Positions 42,859 through 51,331 of a stretch of DNA of 64,000 bases are shown piece after piece. The notes below the pieces were generated by a model. The model made no database searches. It was not told the DNA's origin and saw only the letters and a program-made list of their open reading frames with translations. Within the stretch, counting starts at the first letter, position 1. Each line of letters begins with the position of its first letter. Location: the NCBI GenBank assembly GCA_026004675.1, contig BPJP01000001.1:1-64000 (forward strand), written 5' to 3'. The position numbers and the translations under genes were made by a program. The stretch is from Gemmatales bacterium. GTDB taxonomy: Bacteria; Planctomycetota; Planctomycetia; Gemmatales; Gemmataceae.

Positions 42859-42986
42859 AATTAAACATAACAGCTATTATCGGACGTTGGCGGCCTGGCC
42901 CGAATTTGCTACCGGCCAGGTTCGGATTTTCCAACGCCCAGCCGGGCTTGCGCAACAACGTCCGATAATGCCTCTTATGTTTAATT
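42859..42986. repeat. 128-bp inverted-repeat element (MITE-like or structured RNA)
   Basis: The outer arms read AATTAAACATAA then TTATCGGACGTTG on the left (42859-42889) and their reverse complement on the right (42956-42986), with a 6-base mismatched step at the same place in both arms; 28 of 31 positions pair. Inside are two further hairpins: CCTGGCC/GGCCAGG (42894-42920) and GCCC/GGGC (42936-42947). It lies between accA and the Gfo/Idh gene. No transposase and no clear target duplication are seen. It could be a non-autonomous transposon relic or a folded RNA. Confidence 0.8.
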
Positions 42987-43101: not shown

Positions 43102-44391
43102 ATGACTACAGCGAATCTGAGCCAGCATCGGTTGAAGGCCGGCATGGTCGGCCTGGGCATGATCTTCGACGACACGTACCGGCCGCTTTTCGAGAAGCTG
43201 CACAAAGACGGCATGTATCGCCGGGACTTCGGGTTTGTCGATGTGGAATTGACCGCCGTCGCCAGCCGAACCGGCAAGCGAGCAGAGAAGTACAAGAAAG
43301 AATCGCATGGGCGCATTGCCGACTTCAAGAGCTTCGCGGGCGGAGACGCGGTGCGGCAACTCATCGACTGTGGGGTGGACGTGGTCTGCATCGCCACACC
43401 GGATGATCGCCATTTCGAACCGGCCCGCCTCGCCCTTTCCTCGGGCAAACACGTTCTCATCGAAAAGCCTTCCGTTCTGAGTTTGCAGCAGCTCGACGAA
43501 CTGACCGAGCTGGCCAGGCAAAAGGGTGTGCTTGCCAAAATCGTCTACCACAAACTGCTCGACCCCGATCATAAGAAACTGCGCACGCACGTCGTCGAGG
43601 GAGTGTTGCAGCATGTCAACAACGGCTACTGCACGCTCCTTGAACCGAAACAGATCAGCGGCGAGCAATTCGCCGAGTGGATCACCGGTCGCAACCCTGG
43701 GACTTACGTCGCCTGCCATTACATCAAGCTCATCGACTACACGTTCGGCCCGAACTGGAAGTTGTCACGGATCACTGCCACCGGTCAGCGAGGCATCGTC
43801 GGCAAGGCGGACGGCCCGACCTGGGATTCCACCCAATTGCAGATGGTCTACACCTACGACGATGGCAGGGAAGCAGCGTTCGACATCCATACCAGCTGGG
43901 TCACGCCCAACAACTTCCCAGGCTACGTCGAGCAGGAAGTGCAGTTCCGCTTCGACAATGGCGTGTGGTCGGCACAGCAACGGAAGCGCGGCGTCGAAAT
44001 GACGGTCGAAGGACGTTCCCCTGGCGAATTCAAGATCACTCCCAACCACCATTACAACGCTTCGTTCATCGAACCGTGGAACGAACGCTCGACGCGCGGC
44101 TACGGCATCGAAACGATTGCCCGGTTTTTCGAAGAAGTGGCCTACGTTGAATTCGGGGGACCTGCCGACGAACGCGAGAAACGGCTCGAAGAGATGCGCG
44201 GTCTGGCGTACAACGACGTAACGAGCGACCGCAATTGTGTCGCCACCGTCCAGGCATTGGAGGCCATTCTGGCCCACCACGCCAAAGGACAGCCGGCATG
44301 CGTCGTCGAAGTCAACGGCGAGGAAGGCGGACTTGTATTACGCGCACCAGGCAAAGCCGAACCTGTCGTACTCTACGAAGGCAAGGTCTAG
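43102..44391 (+). CDS. Gfo/Idh/MocA family oxidoreductase
   Basis: This 429-residue protein has an N-terminal Rossmann fold (AGMVGLGMIFDDTYRPL), a VVCIATPDDRHF strand and the GKHVLIEKPSVLS element, whose EKP motif carries the catalytic Lys. The C-terminal alpha/beta domain holds the substrate pocket (VACHYIKLIDYTFGP, EPWNERSTRGYGI). Members reduce or oxidise sugars and inositols with NAD(P). The size is larger than average; the N-terminal glycine motif is GLG rather than GxGxxG, with MIFDD after it. It sits after the inverted repeat and is followed by a class III aminotransferase gene, which may suggest amino sugar or cyclitol metabolism. The substrate is unknown. Confidence 0.88.
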   Translation: MTTANLSQHRLKAGMVGLGMIFDDTYRPLFEKLHKDGMYRRDFGFVDVELTAVASRTGKRAEKYKKESHGRIADFKSFAGGDAVRQLIDCGVDVVCIATPDDRHFEPARLALSSGKHVLIEKPSVLSLQQLDELTELARQKGVLAKIVYHKLLDPDHKKLRTHVVEGVLQHVNNGYCTLLEPKQISGEQFAEWITGRNPGTYVACHYIKLIDYTFGPNWKLSRITATGQRGIVGKADGPTWDSTQLQMVYTYDDGREAAFDIHTSWVTPNNFPGYVEQEVQFRFDNGVWSAQQRKRGVEMTVEGRSPGEFKITPNHHYNASFIEPWNERSTRGYGIETIARFFEEVAYVEFGGPADEREKRLEEMRGLAYNDVTSDRNCVATVQALEAILAHHAKGQPACVVEVNGEEGGLVLRAPGKAEPVVLYEGKV

Positions 44392-44611: not shown

Positions 44612-44657
44612 AGCGCTGTGCCGCGATCTCGTGAAGCTGTTTTGCCGGAGACCTTCC

Positions 44658-46058
44658 ATGACCAAAGCGATCCAACATCCAAACGAAACCAGATCGAACG
44701 CCATTCGCGAGGTCATCGCCAAAGCCGAACCGCGCTGCCTGCGGACCTACACGCCGACGTTGGCGGTGATTGAAAAAAGTTCCGGCGTCTTTCTCTGGAC
44801 CCCCGAAGGGAGGCGGCTTTACGATTACAGCTCCGGCGTATTGGTCGTCAATTTAGGACACCATCCGGCATCCTGGATGAAACGCTTTGTCAACTATATG
44901 GGTTGGCAGTCTAATCCGTGGCAAGAAGCCGAAACGACTTATTTTTCGGCGCCAACGTTGACCGCGTACAATGCTATCACCCCAGTGGAAGCGGAAGCGA
45001 GCAGGCGGCTGGTCGAAACGATGCGACAATGCCCCGGCGGTCAGCGATTGGACCAGGTATTATGGGCGGCATCCGGGTCGGAGGCGATCCAAAAGGCCCT
45101 CTGGGCGGCTTTGGCGCGGGATCGCCAACGCGACATCATCATCGCGACTCGTTACGGTTTTCACGGCAAAAAAGGTCTGGCAGGCGCGACGACCGGGAGC
45201 GAAGCCGACCGGGAACGCGATCCGCGCGTCCGTTTCATCAGTTTTCCAATGGCCGAATGTGCCGATGTCAGCCAACGTGACGATCCGTTCGACGCTTCGA
45301 AATACGAGCAAGAGCTTAAAGCACTCAAAGATGAATTCGGCAAGCGACTGAATGCTCTGATCACGGAGCCGTACTTGGGAGGTGGTGGCTCCTATCATCC
45401 GCCCAAGGCGTACCTGCAACTGCTGCAAAAATTTTGCCGGGACAACGATATTGTCTTCATCCTGGATGAGGTTCAGTCCAACTTTGGCCGAACCGGTGAT
45501 CTGTTCGCGTTCGTCACTTATGGCATCGAACCGGACATCGTTGTGCTGGGCAAAGGATTGGGGAACGGCGTCCCGGTGGCGGCCGCCGTCGGCCGAAGCG
45601 ACCTGTTCGCCCATCTCGAATATGGAGAGGGTTCGGATACCTGGAGCGCCAATCCGATGTGCTGTGCTGCCGTCCTTGCCACTCTCGACGAGTACGCCGC
45701 CAACGACGTTTTATCGCATTGCCGCCGAAGTTCCCGAATCATCGAAGAAGGTCTGGTGCGACTGAAAGAGCTGCCGTTTGTCGCTCGCGTCCGAGGCGAA
45801 AAAGGGGGAATGGTTTGGGGGGTCGAGATGACCGACCATGATCGCCGATCGGCAGCCGACTGGGCCAACGACTTCGTCTTGGCCTGCTATCAGGGAACAC
45901 CCGGTGGTGACGGCATTCATCTCCTCGGTCCGCTCGCCAAGAAAGTGGTCCGTATAGCTCCGCCGCTGACGATCAGCGAACAAGAGGCGAAGGACTCGGT
46001 CCGAGTGATGTTCGATTGCGCAGCGCGATTAGTCGAAGCTGTGGCAGCCAAGGGCTGA
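44658..46058 (+). CDS. Class III pyridoxal phosphate aminotransferase
   Basis: This 466-residue enzyme is of the ornithine/acetylornithine/GABA aminotransferase fold type I group. LYDYSSGVLVVNLGHHP, GSEAIQKALWAA, RYGFHGKKG, the PLP Asp in ILDEVQSNFGRTG and the Schiff-base Lys in VLGKGLGNGVP are in place. The C-terminal domain contains IAPPLTISEQEA. The donor and acceptor are not evident. An ATG at 44658 after GGAGACC is preferred; an upstream frame start at 44631 is less likely. The stop is followed within three bases by a copy of the dispersed motif. Confidence 0.9.
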   Translation: MTKAIQHPNETRSNAIREVIAKAEPRCLRTYTPTLAVIEKSSGVFLWTPEGRRLYDYSSGVLVVNLGHHPASWMKRFVNYMGWQSNPWQEAETTYFSAPTLTAYNAITPVEAEASRRLVETMRQCPGGQRLDQVLWAASGSEAIQKALWAALARDRQRDIIIATRYGFHGKKGLAGATTGSEADRERDPRVRFISFPMAECADVSQRDDPFDASKYEQELKALKDEFGKRLNALITEPYLGGGGSYHPPKAYLQLLQKFCRDNDIVFILDEVQSNFGRTGDLFAFVTYGIEPDIVVLGKGLGNGVPVAAAVGRSDLFAHLEYGEGSDTWSANPMCCAAVLATLDEYAANDVLSHCRRSSRIIEEGLVRLKELPFVARVRGEKGGMVWGVEMTDHDRRSAADWANDFVLACYQGTPGGDGIHLLGPLAKKVVRIAPPLTISEQEAKDSVRVMFDCAARLVEAVAAKG

Positions 46059-46144: not shown

Positions 46145-47098
46145 ATGGCCAGTATCGACAAGTGGTTGGATGCCGTTGTTTTTCACCTGGCAAGACTAGC
46201 GCCGCAGGATACGTACCTTAGTTTTGAGACTAATATCCGCGGCCTGTTGGCTGTGATCCTCGTTTGCCTGATCTGCGGCGCCGTCGGCTCCATGGTAGTG
46301 GGCAACCGCATGGCGTTTTTCAGCGACGCCCTCGCCCATTGTGCCTTTGCCGGGGTTGGTCTCGGTTTGATCAGTGGGCTTTTGATGCAGTTGGGCAAAG
46401 ACTCCGGGTATTACACTTGGGGAGTGCCGGCCATTATGGTCGTATTCGGCGTCGTCATCGGTCTCGGCATCGCCTGGGTCCGCGAAAACACATCGCTAGC
46501 CAGCGATACGGTGATTGGCGTTTTTTTCGCCTTTTCCGTGGGATTCGGCGCCATGATCTTCAAGGCCATCAGCGCTCGGGCTTATCTTTCCCCAGAGAAC
46601 TTCCTTTTTGGCGACCCCACATGGGTCACCAGCGCCGATTTGGTCGTGTTGATCGCATTGCTGGCAGTCACCATGGTCGTGCTGGCCTGGATCTACAACG
46701 GGTTGGTCTTCAGCAGCTTTAATCTAAGTCTGGCTCGCTCGCGAAAAATCGCCCATCGCCTGTACAACTACGCCTTTATCATCCTTTTGGCGATGATCGT
46801 GAATCTCTGCCTGAAGACCGTCGGGGCGTTGTTGATCCACGGGCTGTTGATCGTACCGGCGGCAGCGGCCGCGAACATCAGCCGAAATATGAGGCAGATG
46901 TTCCTTTTCAGCGTGGCGATCAGTGTTTTTGTCGGTGTCGGCGGCGCTTGGGCAGCGATGGAAATAGGCATCCGCGACCCAGCAACGGGACAAACGATCC
47001 ACTTCGGCTGGAGTGGCACCATTGTTGTTGTGGCAGTGGCGCTGTTTTTCGCGACGATGTTGCTGCGCCGTCTGCGCGGCGAGACAGTTGCTGCCTGA
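46145..47098 (+). CDS. Zinc/manganese ABC transporter permease (ZnuB/TroC-like)
   Basis: This 317-residue protein has about eight transmembrane segments of the ABC-3 family. Recognisable parts are NIRGLLAVILVCLICGAVGS, GNRMAFFSDALAHCAFAGVG (the ISDALSHA-type element), FGDPTWVTSADL and KTVGALLIHGLLIVPAAAAA. The family imports Zn, Mn or Fe with an ATPase and a solute-binding protein; neither is adjacent. AGGAGGTGA immediately precedes the ATG at 46145, which fixes the start. It heads a group of three membrane genes with the DUF318 permease and the His-rich partner, which suggests metal transport. Confidence 0.9.
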   Translation: MASIDKWLDAVVFHLARLAPQDTYLSFETNIRGLLAVILVCLICGAVGSMVVGNRMAFFSDALAHCAFAGVGLGLISGLLMQLGKDSGYYTWGVPAIMVVFGVVIGLGIAWVRENTSLASDTVIGVFFAFSVGFGAMIFKAISARAYLSPENFLFGDPTWVTSADLVVLIALLAVTMVVLAWIYNGLVFSSFNLSLARSRKIAHRLYNYAFIILLAMIVNLCLKTVGALLIHGLLIVPAAAAANISRNMRQMFLFSVAISVFVGVGGAWAAMEIGIRDPATGQTIHFGWSGTIVVVAVALFFATMLLRRLRGETVAA

Positions 47099-47281
47099 TG
47101 CCAACCAAGACCACAGGAAACGAAGACTGGTACGACCATCGCGATGATGGCCTTTTGCTGGCTCTTGCAAGCAGCAGCCATGTGCTCGACAATCGGACGA
47201 AACGAGTGAGGTGAGGATTATTTGCCGCCCAGCGTCGCGGCATGATTGGACCTGCCAACCCTCAGTGCATAAGAAGTTGCC

Positions 47282-48262
47282 GTGGAATACGTCATCACGG
47301 ATTTCATCTTTCTGTTTTGCAGCATCCTCTACGAGGCGCTTCCGTTTATCATCCTCGGAGCCGCCATCGCGGGGTTTCTGGAAGAGTTCGTTCCGCAACA
47401 ATGGCTTGTTCGCATCATTCCAAAGAACGCCGTCTTGGCGGTAGGAATCAGCGGCGGACTGGGCCTTTTGTTTCCCATGTGCGAATGCGGCATCATCGTC
47501 GTCATGCGCCGCTTGCTCCGCAAAGGGTTGCCGCTTAGTTGCTGCGTCGCCTACATGCTTGCCGGTCCGATTATCAACGTTATTGTAATTCTGAGCACCT
47601 ATGTCGCGTTTGCTCCCTATGAGCCGGCGCAAATGGGCGGTTTCTTCATGGTCGGATTTCGCGTTGCCTTCGGCTATGTCGTCGCCTGCCTCACCGCACT
47701 TATCGTCGAATGGCAATATCGCAAATATGGCAATAACCTTTTGTCACCGTCCGTGACCGCTGGCCTGGACGACGCAGACCACGAGCCGGACGTTGGGGTT
47801 CCCAAGCCTCCCTTCTGGCAACGGCTCGGCAACGTCTCCGAAACCGCCCTCCATGACTTCGTCGATATTACAGTGTTCTTGATCCTCGGTGCGCTGCTGG
47901 CTTCCTTTACACGCCAGACGATGATCTACAATCCTGGTGTTCAGGAATTCATCCAGGGGAAGCCCGTTCTTTCCCACGGACTGATGATGGTGCTGGCAGT
48001 CCTGCTCAATCTTTGCAGTGAAGCCGATGCCTTTGTCGCAGCCAATCTCGGCGGCACCGCCATTCCGCCGACCGCCAAACTCGCCTTTCTCGTCCTTGGT
48101 CCCATGATCGACATCAAGCTATACTTCATGTATACGCGCGTTTTTCGCCAACGCTTGATTTGGATTATCTTCAGCACCGTGGCGATCCAGGTTTTTATCT
48201 ATTCGTTACTTTTTTATTTCTACTGGCAGTACCGTTGGGTCACCCCGACCGGAACCGGTTGA
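47282..48262 (+). CDS. DUF318 (YcgR/ArsP-superfamily) permease
   Basis: This 326-residue membrane protein has about eight to ten helices. The family's Cys motif occurs twice over in one segment: LFPMCECGIIVVMRRLL (CxC). GLPLSCCVAYMLAGPIINVIV and, in the second half, NLCSEADAFVAANL follow, as in PF03773 permeases such as ArsP and Bacillus YcgR. The start is GTG at 47282. The next gene encodes a TIGR03943/DUF1980 protein, the standard partner of the YcgR branch. The context and the neighbouring ABC permease favour a divalent metal as substrate, although members of the superfamily can export organoarsenicals. Confidence 0.87.
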   Translation: MEYVITDFIFLFCSILYEALPFIILGAAIAGFLEEFVPQQWLVRIIPKNAVLAVGISGGLGLLFPMCECGIIVVMRRLLRKGLPLSCCVAYMLAGPIINVIVILSTYVAFAPYEPAQMGGFFMVGFRVAFGYVVACLTALIVEWQYRKYGNNLLSPSVTAGLDDADHEPDVGVPKPPFWQRLGNVSETALHDFVDITVFLILGALLASFTRQTMIYNPGVQEFIQGKPVLSHGLMMVLAVLLNLCSEADAFVAANLGGTAIPPTAKLAFLVLGPMIDIKLYFMYTRVFRQRLIWIIFSTVAIQVFIYSLLFYFYWQYRWVTPTGTG

Positions 48263-48264
48263 CC

Positions 48265-48275
48265 CCCCTGCCCTG
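48265..48275. repeat. Dispersed motif copy, CCCCTGCCCTG
   Basis: Exact copy directly after the stop codon (48260-48262) of the DUF318 permease and 18 bases before the next start. Confidence 0.65.
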
Positions 48276-48292
48276 CCCCGTGGAGAAGAAGC

Positions 48293-49522
48293 ATGGACCA
48301 GCATCATCACGTAGATGCCAACACCTATTTCATGGACCAACTGTTCGCCATCGGACTCGGCGGCGCCATTGGCGCCATCTGCATCGTCCACTATCTCAAA
48401 CAATCGCTCTTTTATTTAGCGCCCCAATTCCAGTTGCCGGTGCTTCTCGGTGGTATCGTCCTGCTCGCCTTTGTTGCCATCCGCTCCTGGGTGCTTTGGC
48501 GCGAAACCGGAGAGGCTCGTTCGGCCGTTGTCCCGTGCAATCATGATCATCATCACCATCAGCACGACTCCTCTCATCAGCATGATGCTGGCGACAGCCA
48601 TCACCACGAAAACGATTGCGATGCCCATCATCACCATCATGAACATCATCCTCATCAACATCATCCTCATCACCACCATGCCGGTCACGACCATGGCCAC
48701 GATCACGGCTGGAACCCATGGCGCTATGCTGTGCTGGCGTTGCCGGTGTTTCTGTTTTTGATGAATTTGCCGAACAAAGGCCTGAGCAATTTCGCCATCT
48801 CGAAGATGGGAGCGAATGTCGAGGGGCTGGATCTCGATAGGGATGCCAATTTCAGCGCTGCAATCGGCGTGCAACTTGCCAAATCGGGAAAATGGCCGAT
48901 CATCGGTAGCGTGAACAGCAACACGCCCGCTGAGAAAGCGGGCCTGAAAATGGGCGATGCGATCGTCAAAATCAAATTGATCCAGGATGCCAAGGGGCAG
49001 CCATTGAAACACCCCAGGGAAATCGAAACGAAGGACCTTGGCCTGAAGGAAGTGCTCGCTCACTTGAGAGGCGAACCGGGAAGCAAAGTTGTCCTGATCA
49101 TCCAGCGAGAAGGTGAACCAGAACCGATCGAGGTTACCGTAACGCGGAATGAAGTGATTTCACTTCAATTCAAGGATCTGGAGCGAGCACGTTTTTCCGC
49201 ATTGAGCAGGAATTTTTACACCGGTCGCATGGGACGCCTGCGCGGCCAGTTTTCGCCATCGGGGAACGATCGGGTCTTCAGCCTCATGCGCTTGCGCATG
49301 ACCTGCTGCGGCGCCGATGTCACACCGTTGAACGTCGTCATCATTGCGCCAGAGAGCCTGGCCAATCTCGATCTGAAAGCCGGAGACTGGGTCGAAGTCG
49401 AAGGGCAGATCGATTTTCGCCTCGATCAGCGCAAACAAGTCTATCAGGCGGTCATTACCGTGCCTTCTCTGGATATGATCCGAAAGATTCCTCCCGAACC
49501 CGATATCTTTGTGCGGTTTTGA
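48293..49522 (+). CDS. TIGR03943/DUF1980-type permease partner with His-rich loop and PDZ domain
   Basis: This 409-residue protein has two N-terminal transmembrane helices. A loop of about 57 residues with 29 His follows (residues about 84-140, including runs such as HHHHHEHH), then a third helix (AVLALPVFLFLMNLP). A PDZ domain (SVNSNTPAEKAGLKMGDAIV ... VVLIIQREGEPEPIEVTVTR) comes next, then the DUF1980 domain (LMRLRMTCCGADVTPLNVVI). In Bacillus YcgQ-type proteins the DUF1980 protein accompanies the DUF318 permease. The PDZ domain and the polyhistidine loop are not part of the normal architecture. The loop would bind Zn, Ni or Co. It starts 30 bases after the permease stop. Confidence 0.88.
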   Translation: MDQHHHVDANTYFMDQLFAIGLGGAIGAICIVHYLKQSLFYLAPQFQLPVLLGGIVLLAFVAIRSWVLWRETGEARSAVVPCNHDHHHHQHDSSHQHDAGDSHHHENDCDAHHHHHEHHPHQHHPHHHHAGHDHGHDHGWNPWRYAVLALPVFLFLMNLPNKGLSNFAISKMGANVEGLDLDRDANFSAAIGVQLAKSGKWPIIGSVNSNTPAEKAGLKMGDAIVKIKLIQDAKGQPLKHPREIETKDLGLKEVLAHLRGEPGSKVVLIIQREGEPEPIEVTVTRNEVISLQFKDLERARFSALSRNFYTGRMGRLRGQFSPSGNDRVFSLMRLRMTCCGADVTPLNVVIIAPESLANLDLKAGDWVEVEGQIDFRLDQRKQVYQAVITVPSLDMIRKIPPEPDIFVRF

Positions 49523-49637: not shown

Positions 49638-50366
49638 ATGCGTAACCTGCTGTGTCTTTGCCTTTTCTTGGTTCCTGCCGTCGACGCTGCCGCTGATAGC
49701 GACTGGGTACAGTTGTCCGACAGTTTCGATCATTGGCAAAAACCTCTTGGCGACTGGATCGAAGTAAAGTCAGTTCGTCTGGATGCCGACAATCCCCGCC
49801 GCTTCGTTTTCGAGAAAGGAAAAGGAATCTGGTTGAACGGTCCAAATGGGCGAACGCGCAACCTGGTGACGAAACAAAACCACGCCGACGTCGAGGTGCA
49901 ATTCGATTTCAATATTCCCAAGCGGTCCAATTCGGGGGTCAAGTTCATGGGGGTGTACGAGATTCAGATTCTCGACAGTTTCGGGAAGAAAGAGTTGACC
50001 GGATCGGACTGCGGTGGCGTCTATCCGCGTGCGGAGATGAAGCCGCGCTATCACACGATCGACAAGGGGGTGCCCCCACGCGTCAATGCGTGCAAAGCTC
50101 CTGGTGAATGGCAGACACTGCACGTGGTTTTTCGAGCGCCACGTTTCGACGAGAACGGCAAAAAGATTGCCAACGCTCGCTTTGATAAAGTGGTGCTCAA
50201 CGGAGTCGTGATTCACGAGAATGTGGAAGTACCATATCCTACGGGCCATATCTGGAACAAAGTCAAGGAGAAGGCGACAGGACCACTGCTGTTACAGGCC
50301 GACCATGGCCCGGTCGCGTTTCGAAACATCCGCTGGCGACAATTGTCCACGGAGGGAAAGAAATGA
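49638..50366 (+). CDS. DUF1080 (3-keto-disaccharide hydrolase-like) exported protein
   Basis: This 242-residue protein has a signal peptide (MRNLLCLCLFLVPAVDAAAD) and a concanavalin-like beta-sandwich of the DUF1080 family. Elements are DSFDHWQKPLGDWIEV, KQNHADVEVQFDFNIPK, GVYEIQILDSFGK, GGVYPRAEMKPRYHTI, PGEWQTLHVVFRAPRF and GPLLLQADHGPVAFRNIRWR. Some members hydrolyse 3-keto-glycosides produced by sugar oxidases; planctomycetes have very many. The stop overlaps the start of the methyltransferase gene by four bases (ATGA), so the two are coupled in translation. Confidence 0.9.
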   Translation: MRNLLCLCLFLVPAVDAAADSDWVQLSDSFDHWQKPLGDWIEVKSVRLDADNPRRFVFEKGKGIWLNGPNGRTRNLVTKQNHADVEVQFDFNIPKRSNSGVKFMGVYEIQILDSFGKKELTGSDCGGVYPRAEMKPRYHTIDKGVPPRVNACKAPGEWQTLHVVFRAPRFDENGKKIANARFDKVVLNGVVIHENVEVPYPTGHIWNKVKEKATGPLLLQADHGPVAFRNIRWRQLSTEGKK

Positions 50367-51331
50367 ACGATTACTTGCAGACGGTTGAGGCGGTCTATGC
50401 CGAGGCAGCCAAAACTCCTGATGCCGAACTCTGCTGCACACAATCGCCGGTCTGGCGCTTGCCGGATTTGAAAATACCCGAGCGCATGTTGGCGATGAAT
50501 TACGGCTGCGGCTCGACAGTCCATCCCCGCGACATTCACGAAGGGGCGACCGTCTTGTATGTCGGCGTCGGCGGGGGGCTGGAGGCACTGCAATTCGCCT
50601 ATTTGACAAGGCGCCCGGGGTCCGTCCTCGCTGTCGATCCAGTGGCCGAAATGCGAGAACAAGCCCGCATCAATCTGGAAGAAGCAGCTCGGCTGAATTC
50701 CTGGTTTCAAACCGATTTTGTCCGTCTGCTCGATGGCGACGCGTTTCATTTGCCTGCGGAAAACAACAGTGTCTCGGTGGTGGCACAGAATTGCCTGTTC
50801 AACATTTTTACGACGGGTGATTTGCAGCGTGCTTTGGGGGAAGTTTTTCGCGTTTTGAGAATAGGCGGCTTGTTCAGCACCTGCGATCCGGTAACGCCCG
50901 TTCCCTTGCCGGAATCTCTCGCCGACGACGAACGCCTGCGTGCTCGATGTATTTCTGGTTGCCTTACGATCGACGCTTATCTTGGCGCCTTGACCGACGC
51001 AGGTTTTGGCCGGATCGAGGTCCGCAGCCGCAGCCCCTATCGCTACCTGCATCCGCGCGAATATCCGCTGCTGAAGGAACCGATTTTGCTTGAAAGTATC
51101 GAGGCAGCTGCTTATAAAGTTCCGGACGGTTTCGACGGCCCGGAAATTCTCACCGGGCGGACCGCCATTTATTTCGGTGACCAGCCGTCGTTTACCGATC
51201 AAAGTGGCACGGTATTGCGGCGGGGAATCCCTCAGGAAGTATCCGATGCCGCTGCTGCCCGTTTGCAAAAACACCCCGACATATTTCTGACACCGTCCAC
51301 CTGGCACAGCAAAGGTACCGCCTGTTGCTGA
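50363..51331 (+). CDS. ArsM-like arsenite methyltransferase (arsenosugar-type)
   Basis: This 322-residue SAM methyltransferase begins with ELCCTQSPVW and continues with NYGCGSTVHPRDI, then a modified SAM site LYVGVGGGLEALQFA. VAQNCLFNIFTTGDLQRALG follows, and CISGCLTIDAYLGALTDAGF. The Cys residues in YGCGS, QNCLFN and ISGCLT fall where ArsM enzymes bind As(III). The C-terminus ends in GTACC. ArsM methylates arsenite; the planctomycete branch is often part of an arsenosugar pathway with a radical SAM partner (ArsS), not seen next to it. The SAM site lacks the usual DLGCGTG, so activity is likely but not certain. Confidence 0.78.
   Translation: MNDYLQTVEAVYAEAAKTPDAELCCTQSPVWRLPDLKIPERMLAMNYGCGSTVHPRDIHEGATVLYVGVGGGLEALQFAYLTRRPGSVLAVDPVAEMREQARINLEEAARLNSWFQTDFVRLLDGDAFHLPAENNSVSVVAQNCLFNIFTTGDLQRALGEVFRVLRIGGLFSTCDPVTPVPLPESLADDERLRARCISGCLTIDAYLGALTDAGFGRIEVRSRSPYRYLHPREYPLLKEPILLESIEAAAYKVPDGFDGPEILTGRTAIYFGDQPSFTDQSGTVLRRGIPQEVSDAAAARLQKHPDIFLTPSTWHSKGTACC

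Follow-up and report, generated by a model that had tools for sequence, protein, structure and literature searches.

A permease-partner locus of a Gemmataceae planctomycete and its possible place as the membrane part of a divided system for zinc acquisition

We analyzed a 64,000-nucleotide stretch of DNA from a Gemmataceae planctomycete (GenBank GCA_026004675.1, contig BPJP01000001.1, positions 1-64,000; hereafter the window) and followed up a module of three consecutive membrane genes in it, which encode an ABC-3 (ZnuB-like) permease of the ATP-binding cassette (ABC) type, an ArsP_1/DUF318 (YcgR-like) permease and a DUF1980-type partner protein. The original prediction, made from the letters of the window, had named these three genes and given them a metal theme; profile scores confirm the identities and positions (Table 1), and the theme holds. 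The module is genuine and belongs to a conserved kind of metal-transport module, of which it is in part an unusual example, and the larger result is the apparent splitting of an importer over the genome together with the linkage of ArsP-DUF1980 genes to ZnuA in other bacteria. Judging from gene content and gene order, we slightly favor the reading that the locus supplies the membrane components of a system for zinc acquisition, with the remaining components encoded at another place in the genome.

A ZnuA-ZnuC pair without a permease

Both permeases of the window scored above the gathering cut-offs of their Pfam families. The ABC-3 permease is homologous to the ZnuB structure 9oko and to the Mn permease 7kyp, and scored 85.3 bits with the ZnuB equivalog model NF007089, under its cut-off of 284. 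As predicted, neither an ATPase nor a solute-binding protein (SBP) is encoded beside it, so the same-operon arrangement of a Znu/Adc-type importer is lacking in the window, and in 37 labeled loci from the same family and the same order the cluster likewise has no neighboring SBP or ATPase match. The relatives keep the order Gfo/Idh oxidoreductase, class-III aminotransferase, ABC-3 permease, ArsP, DUF1980. The ABC-3 permease adjoins the ArsP-DUF1980 pair in 65/80 parsed loci (several of the others stop at contig borders), and the DUF1980-type partner adjoins the ArsP_1 permease in the window and nearly all relatives.

A candidate cognate SBP and ATPase are encoded at another locus, where a ZnuA-like gene (C3:420671-421633) is directly adjacent to an ABC ATPase gene (C3:421633-422373) with no permease beside them. 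Among 30 such loci in the family, 28 have both the SBP and the ATPase and none has an ABC-3 gene; of the exceptions, G021 stops at a contig border and G009, which we take up below, is real. In G001 (a single contig), G027 and G032, the only ABC-3 permease is that of the cluster and the ZnuA-ZnuC pair lies elsewhere. Other ABC-3 permeases are also encoded in the window genome, next to a complete SBP-ATPase cluster on C1 and also on C7, and therefore the pairing in this genome rests on the relatives. The C3 pair is co-conserved with the cluster, and its products may assemble with the cluster permease: the missing ATPase and SBP are probably supplied in trans by this ZnuA-ZnuC pair, which is conserved across Gemmatales. 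In three genomes of family f5, the nearest ABC-3 permease is directly 3' of a related ATPase (41-43% identity) and ZnuA stands alone, an arrangement that fits a rearrangement in which the ATPase moved to ZnuA and the permease moved to ArsP-DUF1980. ZnuA likewise lacks an adjoining ATPase in G043, a genome in which the cluster was not found.

Sequence features of both proteins follow the split. A CGHDH motif (C65, H67, H69) is found in 31-32 of 33 split-type ATPase rows, in which the window genome's ATPase occurs three times, leaving ~31 distinct sequences, whereas none of 14 permease-linked ATPases carries it. The motif of the split ATPase (in the window genome L265 5634-6374, which is C3:421633-422373) resembles the repeats of the histidine-rich loop described below. 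In the permease, the segment equivalent to FDEEFA, which we take to be the ATPase-coupling helix from established knowledge of ABC importers, has an acidic residue (D/E) at the four positions F+1 to F+4 in 0/66 Gemmatales permeases vs 7/7 ATPase-linked permeases, and the three f5 permeases keep one. The zinc models AztC, ZnuC and AztA rank among the best hits for the split SBP and ATPase, and the SBP also matches Mn-binding models.

Outside Planctomycetes, the same components occur together. At about ten loci from Desulfobacterota and others, several with a FUR-family gene, ZnuA, ZnuC and an ABC-3 permease are encoded with ArsP-DUF1980 (L192, L201, L215, L216, L219, L253, L257, L258, L259 and L261, of which L257 and L216 are probably one genome). 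At about twelve more, ZnuA is directly 5' of ArsP-DUF1980 with no adjoining ABC-3 permease or ZnuC-type ATPase (L195, L196, L198, L202, L213, L214, L222, L223, L224, L227, L254 and L255). Taken together, these loci belong to Bacilli, Desulfobacterota and Chitinivibrionales. ZnuA was verified with Pfam in L196, L198, L201 and L202, as was FUR in L201, and the other genes were assigned by BLAST to those.

A third frame resembling ZnuA contains two TGA codons, lies near an ABC gene pair (L266 4889-5629; G000 C1:135669-136469) and is probably a decayed gene.

The partner protein and its insertions

The partner, of the DUF1980 type (PF09323 + PF21537), scored 24.8 with DUF1980_C, just short of the gathering cut-off of 25.9, and 55.2 with TIGR03943, below the NCBIfam cut-off of 88.8. 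All 73 partners in alignment A1, which includes the window, match DUF1980_C at E<=0.01, and one H, a CC pair, one D, two G and one F are invariant among them. AlphaFold2 predicted the OB-like C-terminal domain with confidence and gave modest confidence to the PDZ region in its model of the window's partner. In G003, the partner gene is duplicated in tandem (L047 6607-7470 and 7483-8520), and the first copy has a short His loop.

The histidine density given by the original prediction (29 His in ~57 residues) is close to what we found, 29 in 59 residues. Its statement that the partner had acquired this loop is not borne out. Across the 73 A1 partners, the number of His in the aligned loop ranges from 5 to 36 and averages 17.4. 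Outside Planctomycetes, the count per 60 residues before the OB domain is 2-20 (mostly 3-11 in Bacilli, 2-9 in Desulfobacterota), with frames taken from stop to stop so that some counts include residues ahead of the true start, and most partners from Bacilli and Desulfobacterota carry shorter His clusters. Because these and all 72 planctomycete relatives have His clusters, sequence comparison identifies the loop as a family trait that is enlarged in Gemmatales, and we rejected a local acquisition.

The inserted PDZ domain, which had also been singled out as an oddity, is one: PDZ_2 scored 38.5 against a gathering cut-off of 27, and by Pfam the window's own partner is the only one of 73 with a PDZ domain. 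Thus, of the claim that the usual partner has neither feature, the PDZ part stood and the His-loop part fell, since every A1 partner has at least five His in the aligned loop. No second protein covering PDZ and DUF1980_C at real PDZ-OB scores was found in 95 same-family genomes. Partial overlaps from the PDZ search in G007, G016, G062, G063 and G102 fall on linkers of 65-70 residues; those of G007 and G016, read directly, do not look like PDZ, and the scanned partners among these five genomes have no Pfam PDZ match. A narrower purpose-built profile found no PDZ at 80 further loci from the genome collection (0/80), a weaker null because the profile rests on few sequences. A PDZ domain as a general feature of the partner was rejected on these counts, and the insert is real and, among the genomes examined, so far unique to this organism. 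Its nearest relatives in its own genome are regions of S41 peptidases (37-38% identical), as in S41/CtpA-type PDZ domains, but here it has no protease domain and sits in a transporter partner.

The junction that holds the PDZ domain is also used by another insertion. At eight loci (L049, L117, L126, L129 and L133 of genus g14; L052 and L055 of g28 and g12; and L186, with L160, L167 and L180 being further records of some of these), the whole ArsP permease lies inside the partner, between transmembrane (TM) helix 3 and the OB domain, in a single frame of 690-743 codons. In the ArsP tree, the seven nested loci analyzed form two groups with 2 changes, and a single clade was rejected by the approximately unbiased (AU) test (p=3.6e-6), so on phylogenetic grounds nesting appears to have arisen independently, with at least two origins. 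The linker between TM3 and OB is 16 to 72 residues long in other relatives and therefore tolerates insertion, and the shared PDZ/ArsP junction is not in itself surprising. Seven other frames of 640-780 codons (L066, L120, L125, L138, L144, L148 and L153) were rejected as fusions, having ArsP in another frame.

The independent nesting suggests that permease and partner adjoin each other, and it constrains their topology. In the AlphaFold2 model of the nested protein (predicted TM-score, pTM, 0.78), the permease helices were read as two inverted repeats, each of three crossings and a hairpin. Lysine plus arginine averaged 14.4 in the loops assigned to the cytoplasm vs 2.9 in the periplasmic ones (48 ArsP rows; sides were assigned from the predicted model with the charges in view), and both ArsP termini would therefore be periplasmic. 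Since the nested proteins run from TM3 through ArsP to OB, the TM3 exit, the OB domain and the PDZ domain probably face the periplasm, whereas the His loop probably lies in the cytoplasm. With the two on opposite sides, the metal-loading loop and recruiting PDZ domain of the original prediction would need to work together across the membrane.

The locus and its neighborhood

Table 1 Features of the locus (positions in the window unless a locus is named).
Feature	Position	Strand	Remarks
Gfo/Idh/MocA oxidoreductase, cluster gene 1	43102-44391	+	PF01408, 70.5 bits; 5' of aminotransferase in most family loci
Class-III aminotransferase, conserved upstream neighbor	44658-46058	+	PF00202, 237 bits; kept order
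ABC-3 (ZnuB-like) permease	46145-47098	+	PF00950, 151.5 bits (gathering cut-off 20.1)
Presumed ATPase-coupling segment FNLSLARSRK of ABC-3 permease	46718-46747	+	no acidic residue at F+1 to F+4
ArsP_1/DUF318 (YcgR-like) permease	47282-48262	+	PF03773, 156.3 bits (gathering cut-off 32.3)
C-E-C motif of ArsP_1 permease	47480-47488	+	invariant columns of alignments A2 and A4
CSEADAF motif, second half of ArsP_1 permease	48014-48034	+	invariant or nearly so in A2 and A4
DUF1980-type partner, 409 aa	48293-49522	+	3 TM, His loop, PDZ, OB domain
TM helices 1 and 2 of partner (residues 9-78)	48317-48526	+	predicted, AlphaFold2 model m9eb0023489a8
His-rich loop (residues 82-139)	48536-48709	+	29 His in 59-residue stretch; predicted cytoplasmic
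TM helix 3 of partner	48719-48772	+	predicted, AlphaFold2 model m9eb0023489a8
PDZ domain, S41/CtpA-like	48860-49156	+	PDZ_2 (PF13180) at residues 190-283; predicted periplasmic
DUF1980_C domain, predicted OB fold	49160-49507	+	predicted local confidence (pLDDT) per 10-residue block 85-96; Foldseek matches single-stranded DNA-binding protein (SSB)/OB folds
CCxxD motif of OB domain (C338, C339, D342)	49304-49318	+	invariant in 73 A1 sequences
Nested-permease frames	L049 6489-8648; L052 6898-8997; L055 3574-5724

The ArsP_1 permease is 42-58% identical to its relatives in alignment A4, and four more distant relatives (L074, L075, L077 and L078) have a His-rich insert within the permease, in its middle loop. 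The start codon of the aminotransferase was set from relatives, and translation could instead begin at a GTG at 44631, giving a longer protein. A 44-nt inverted repeat (42859-42902 and 42943-42986, 80% complementary, 40-nt spacer) lies upstream of the Gfo/Idh gene and is possibly a small mobile-element relic or a hairpin. On the 3' side of the cluster, where relatives have secreted CPFC-type proteins, the window encodes an arsenosugar-type arsenite methyltransferase, ArsM (50363-51331; NF038099, 435.7 bits, cut-off 400). A putative CbiM-like gene, recognized by eye only and at most a hint of nickel or cobalt, adjoins the cluster in G008 (L039:7795-8394).

Mechanism, alternatives and meaning

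In the mechanism we propose, the ABC-3 permease would be the ZnuB-type channel for the ZnuA-type SBP and ZnuC-type ATPase encoded on C3, and the ArsP_1 permease would pair with its DUF1980 partner as a second transporter of that metal. The cytoplasmic His loop and N-terminal tail of the partner would hold zinc beside the mouth of the permease, its OB domain with the invariant CCxxD site would sit next to the permease termini on the periplasmic side, and the PDZ domain, which is of the type found in secreted S41 proteases and is inserted between TM3 and OB, might tether or sense the C-terminus of a periplasmic protein. Like ZnuABC, AdcABC and AztABC, such a system has a ZnuB-homologous permease and ZnuA and ZnuC homologues in the genome; unlike them, the Gemmatales permease locus is separate from the SBP and ATPase, and the acidic coupling residues are lost. 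YcgR-YcgQ, ScfA-ScfB and SMU.746-747 also join a permease to an adjoining partner of unproven substrate, but the window differs in its expanded His loop, a third TM helix in the model, the PDZ insert, the ABC-3 neighbor and the sub-threshold TIGR03943 score.

Several observations weigh against a split zinc importer. In G009, the cluster is present and ZnuA has no adjoining ATPase; in genus g18, a single ABC-3 gene lies apart from ArsP; and the split SBP and ATPase score under the NCBIfam zinc cut-offs. No shared dyad was found 5' of ZnuA in 31 ZnuA regions, and no palindrome or consensus Zur box near the cluster, a limited negative because, to our knowledge, no planctomycete Zur motif is established. 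The loss of the acidic coupling residues could mean that the cluster permease is no longer driven by ATP and has joined an ArsP-DUF1980-ABC3 complex as a subunit with a structural or regulatory role, as its tight ArsP-DUF1980 linkage and the lack of an adjoining ATPase would also allow. We consider this quite improbable, because three genomes with the ZnuA-ZnuC pair have no other ABC-3 permease and the f5 order, in which the ATPase is followed directly by the related permease, resembles an arrangement that preceded the split. Zinc itself could be the wrong metal: the SBP matches Mn-binding models, and the conserved aminotransferase and Gfo/Idh genes might make a metal complex, so that the cluster would serve Mn, Co, Ni or such a complex. 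However, zinc models are among the best SBP and ATPase matches, the window genome has a separate cluster with a Mn/Fe-type ATPase and no known metallophore-pathway gene was recognized, which makes this alternative unlikely.

The direction of transport is the other point at issue. The ArsP-DUF1980 pair could be a zinc or copper exporter, a safety valve beside uptake genes, in which His loops collect surplus metal, Cys motifs pass it on and the OB domain receives it on the periplasmic side; loading of metal for export would suit cytoplasmic His loops. SO_0444, a distant ArsP_1 member annotated as an exporter, is needed for growth under ZnSO4 or CuCl2 stress (PMC3219624), which also counts against uptake, and a relative is induced by Cd and Cu (PMC10092412). 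BaZur binds 5' of B. anthracis BAS1632, an ArsP_1 gene similar to SMU_747c, with Zur boxes placed as for activation (PMC6336718). However, although the window permease belongs to the same Pfam family, it scored 71.7 bits with the SO_0444 Cu/Zn efflux model NF033936 (cut-off 300) and has another operon context, so that the direction cannot be inherited, and the pair repeatedly adjoins ZnuA-type uptake SBPs, which an exporter would not need. ScfAB and SMU.746-747 are homologous pairs of unproven substrate (8 predicted TM helices in ScfA, 2 in ScfB; PMC5584981), and we found no function for COG0701/COG3689 in the literature. The cited papers thus give the ArsP-DUF1980 family a metal context and no transport direction, and we consider export rather unlikely.

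The ZnuA-only loci invite a stronger version of uptake, in which ArsP-DUF1980 would be an ATP-independent zinc importer working with a ZnuA-type SBP as a tripartite system like the TRAP transporters, joined in Gemmatales to the split ZnuABC channel and here placed under periplasmic control by the PDZ domain. We regard this version as doubtful. At those loci, an ABC transporter may alternatively act in trans. No solved structure of ArsP or DUF1980 was found by profile, and a Foldseek search with the permease fold gave no match at E<=0.001; compared with the TRAP-like ion-transporter-superfamily fold, it gave weak matches to 4f35 and 8w6n (E 0.09-0.21, TMq 0.26-0.28).

DUF318-DUF1980 pairs are widespread, in many Bacilli and Desulfobacterota here and in Streptococcus in the literature, where they affect the fitness of group A Streptococcus (GAS) and the acid tolerance of S. 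mutans, with no substrate established in the literature we found. The recurring ZnuA-ArsP-DUF1980 gene sets offer these pairs a directly testable function. If the split zinc importer is correct, an order-wide zinc ABC importer encoded at two loci, whose ATPase carries a derived CGHDH motif and whose permease has lost an acidic patch, would be a useful case of co-evolution within a transporter.

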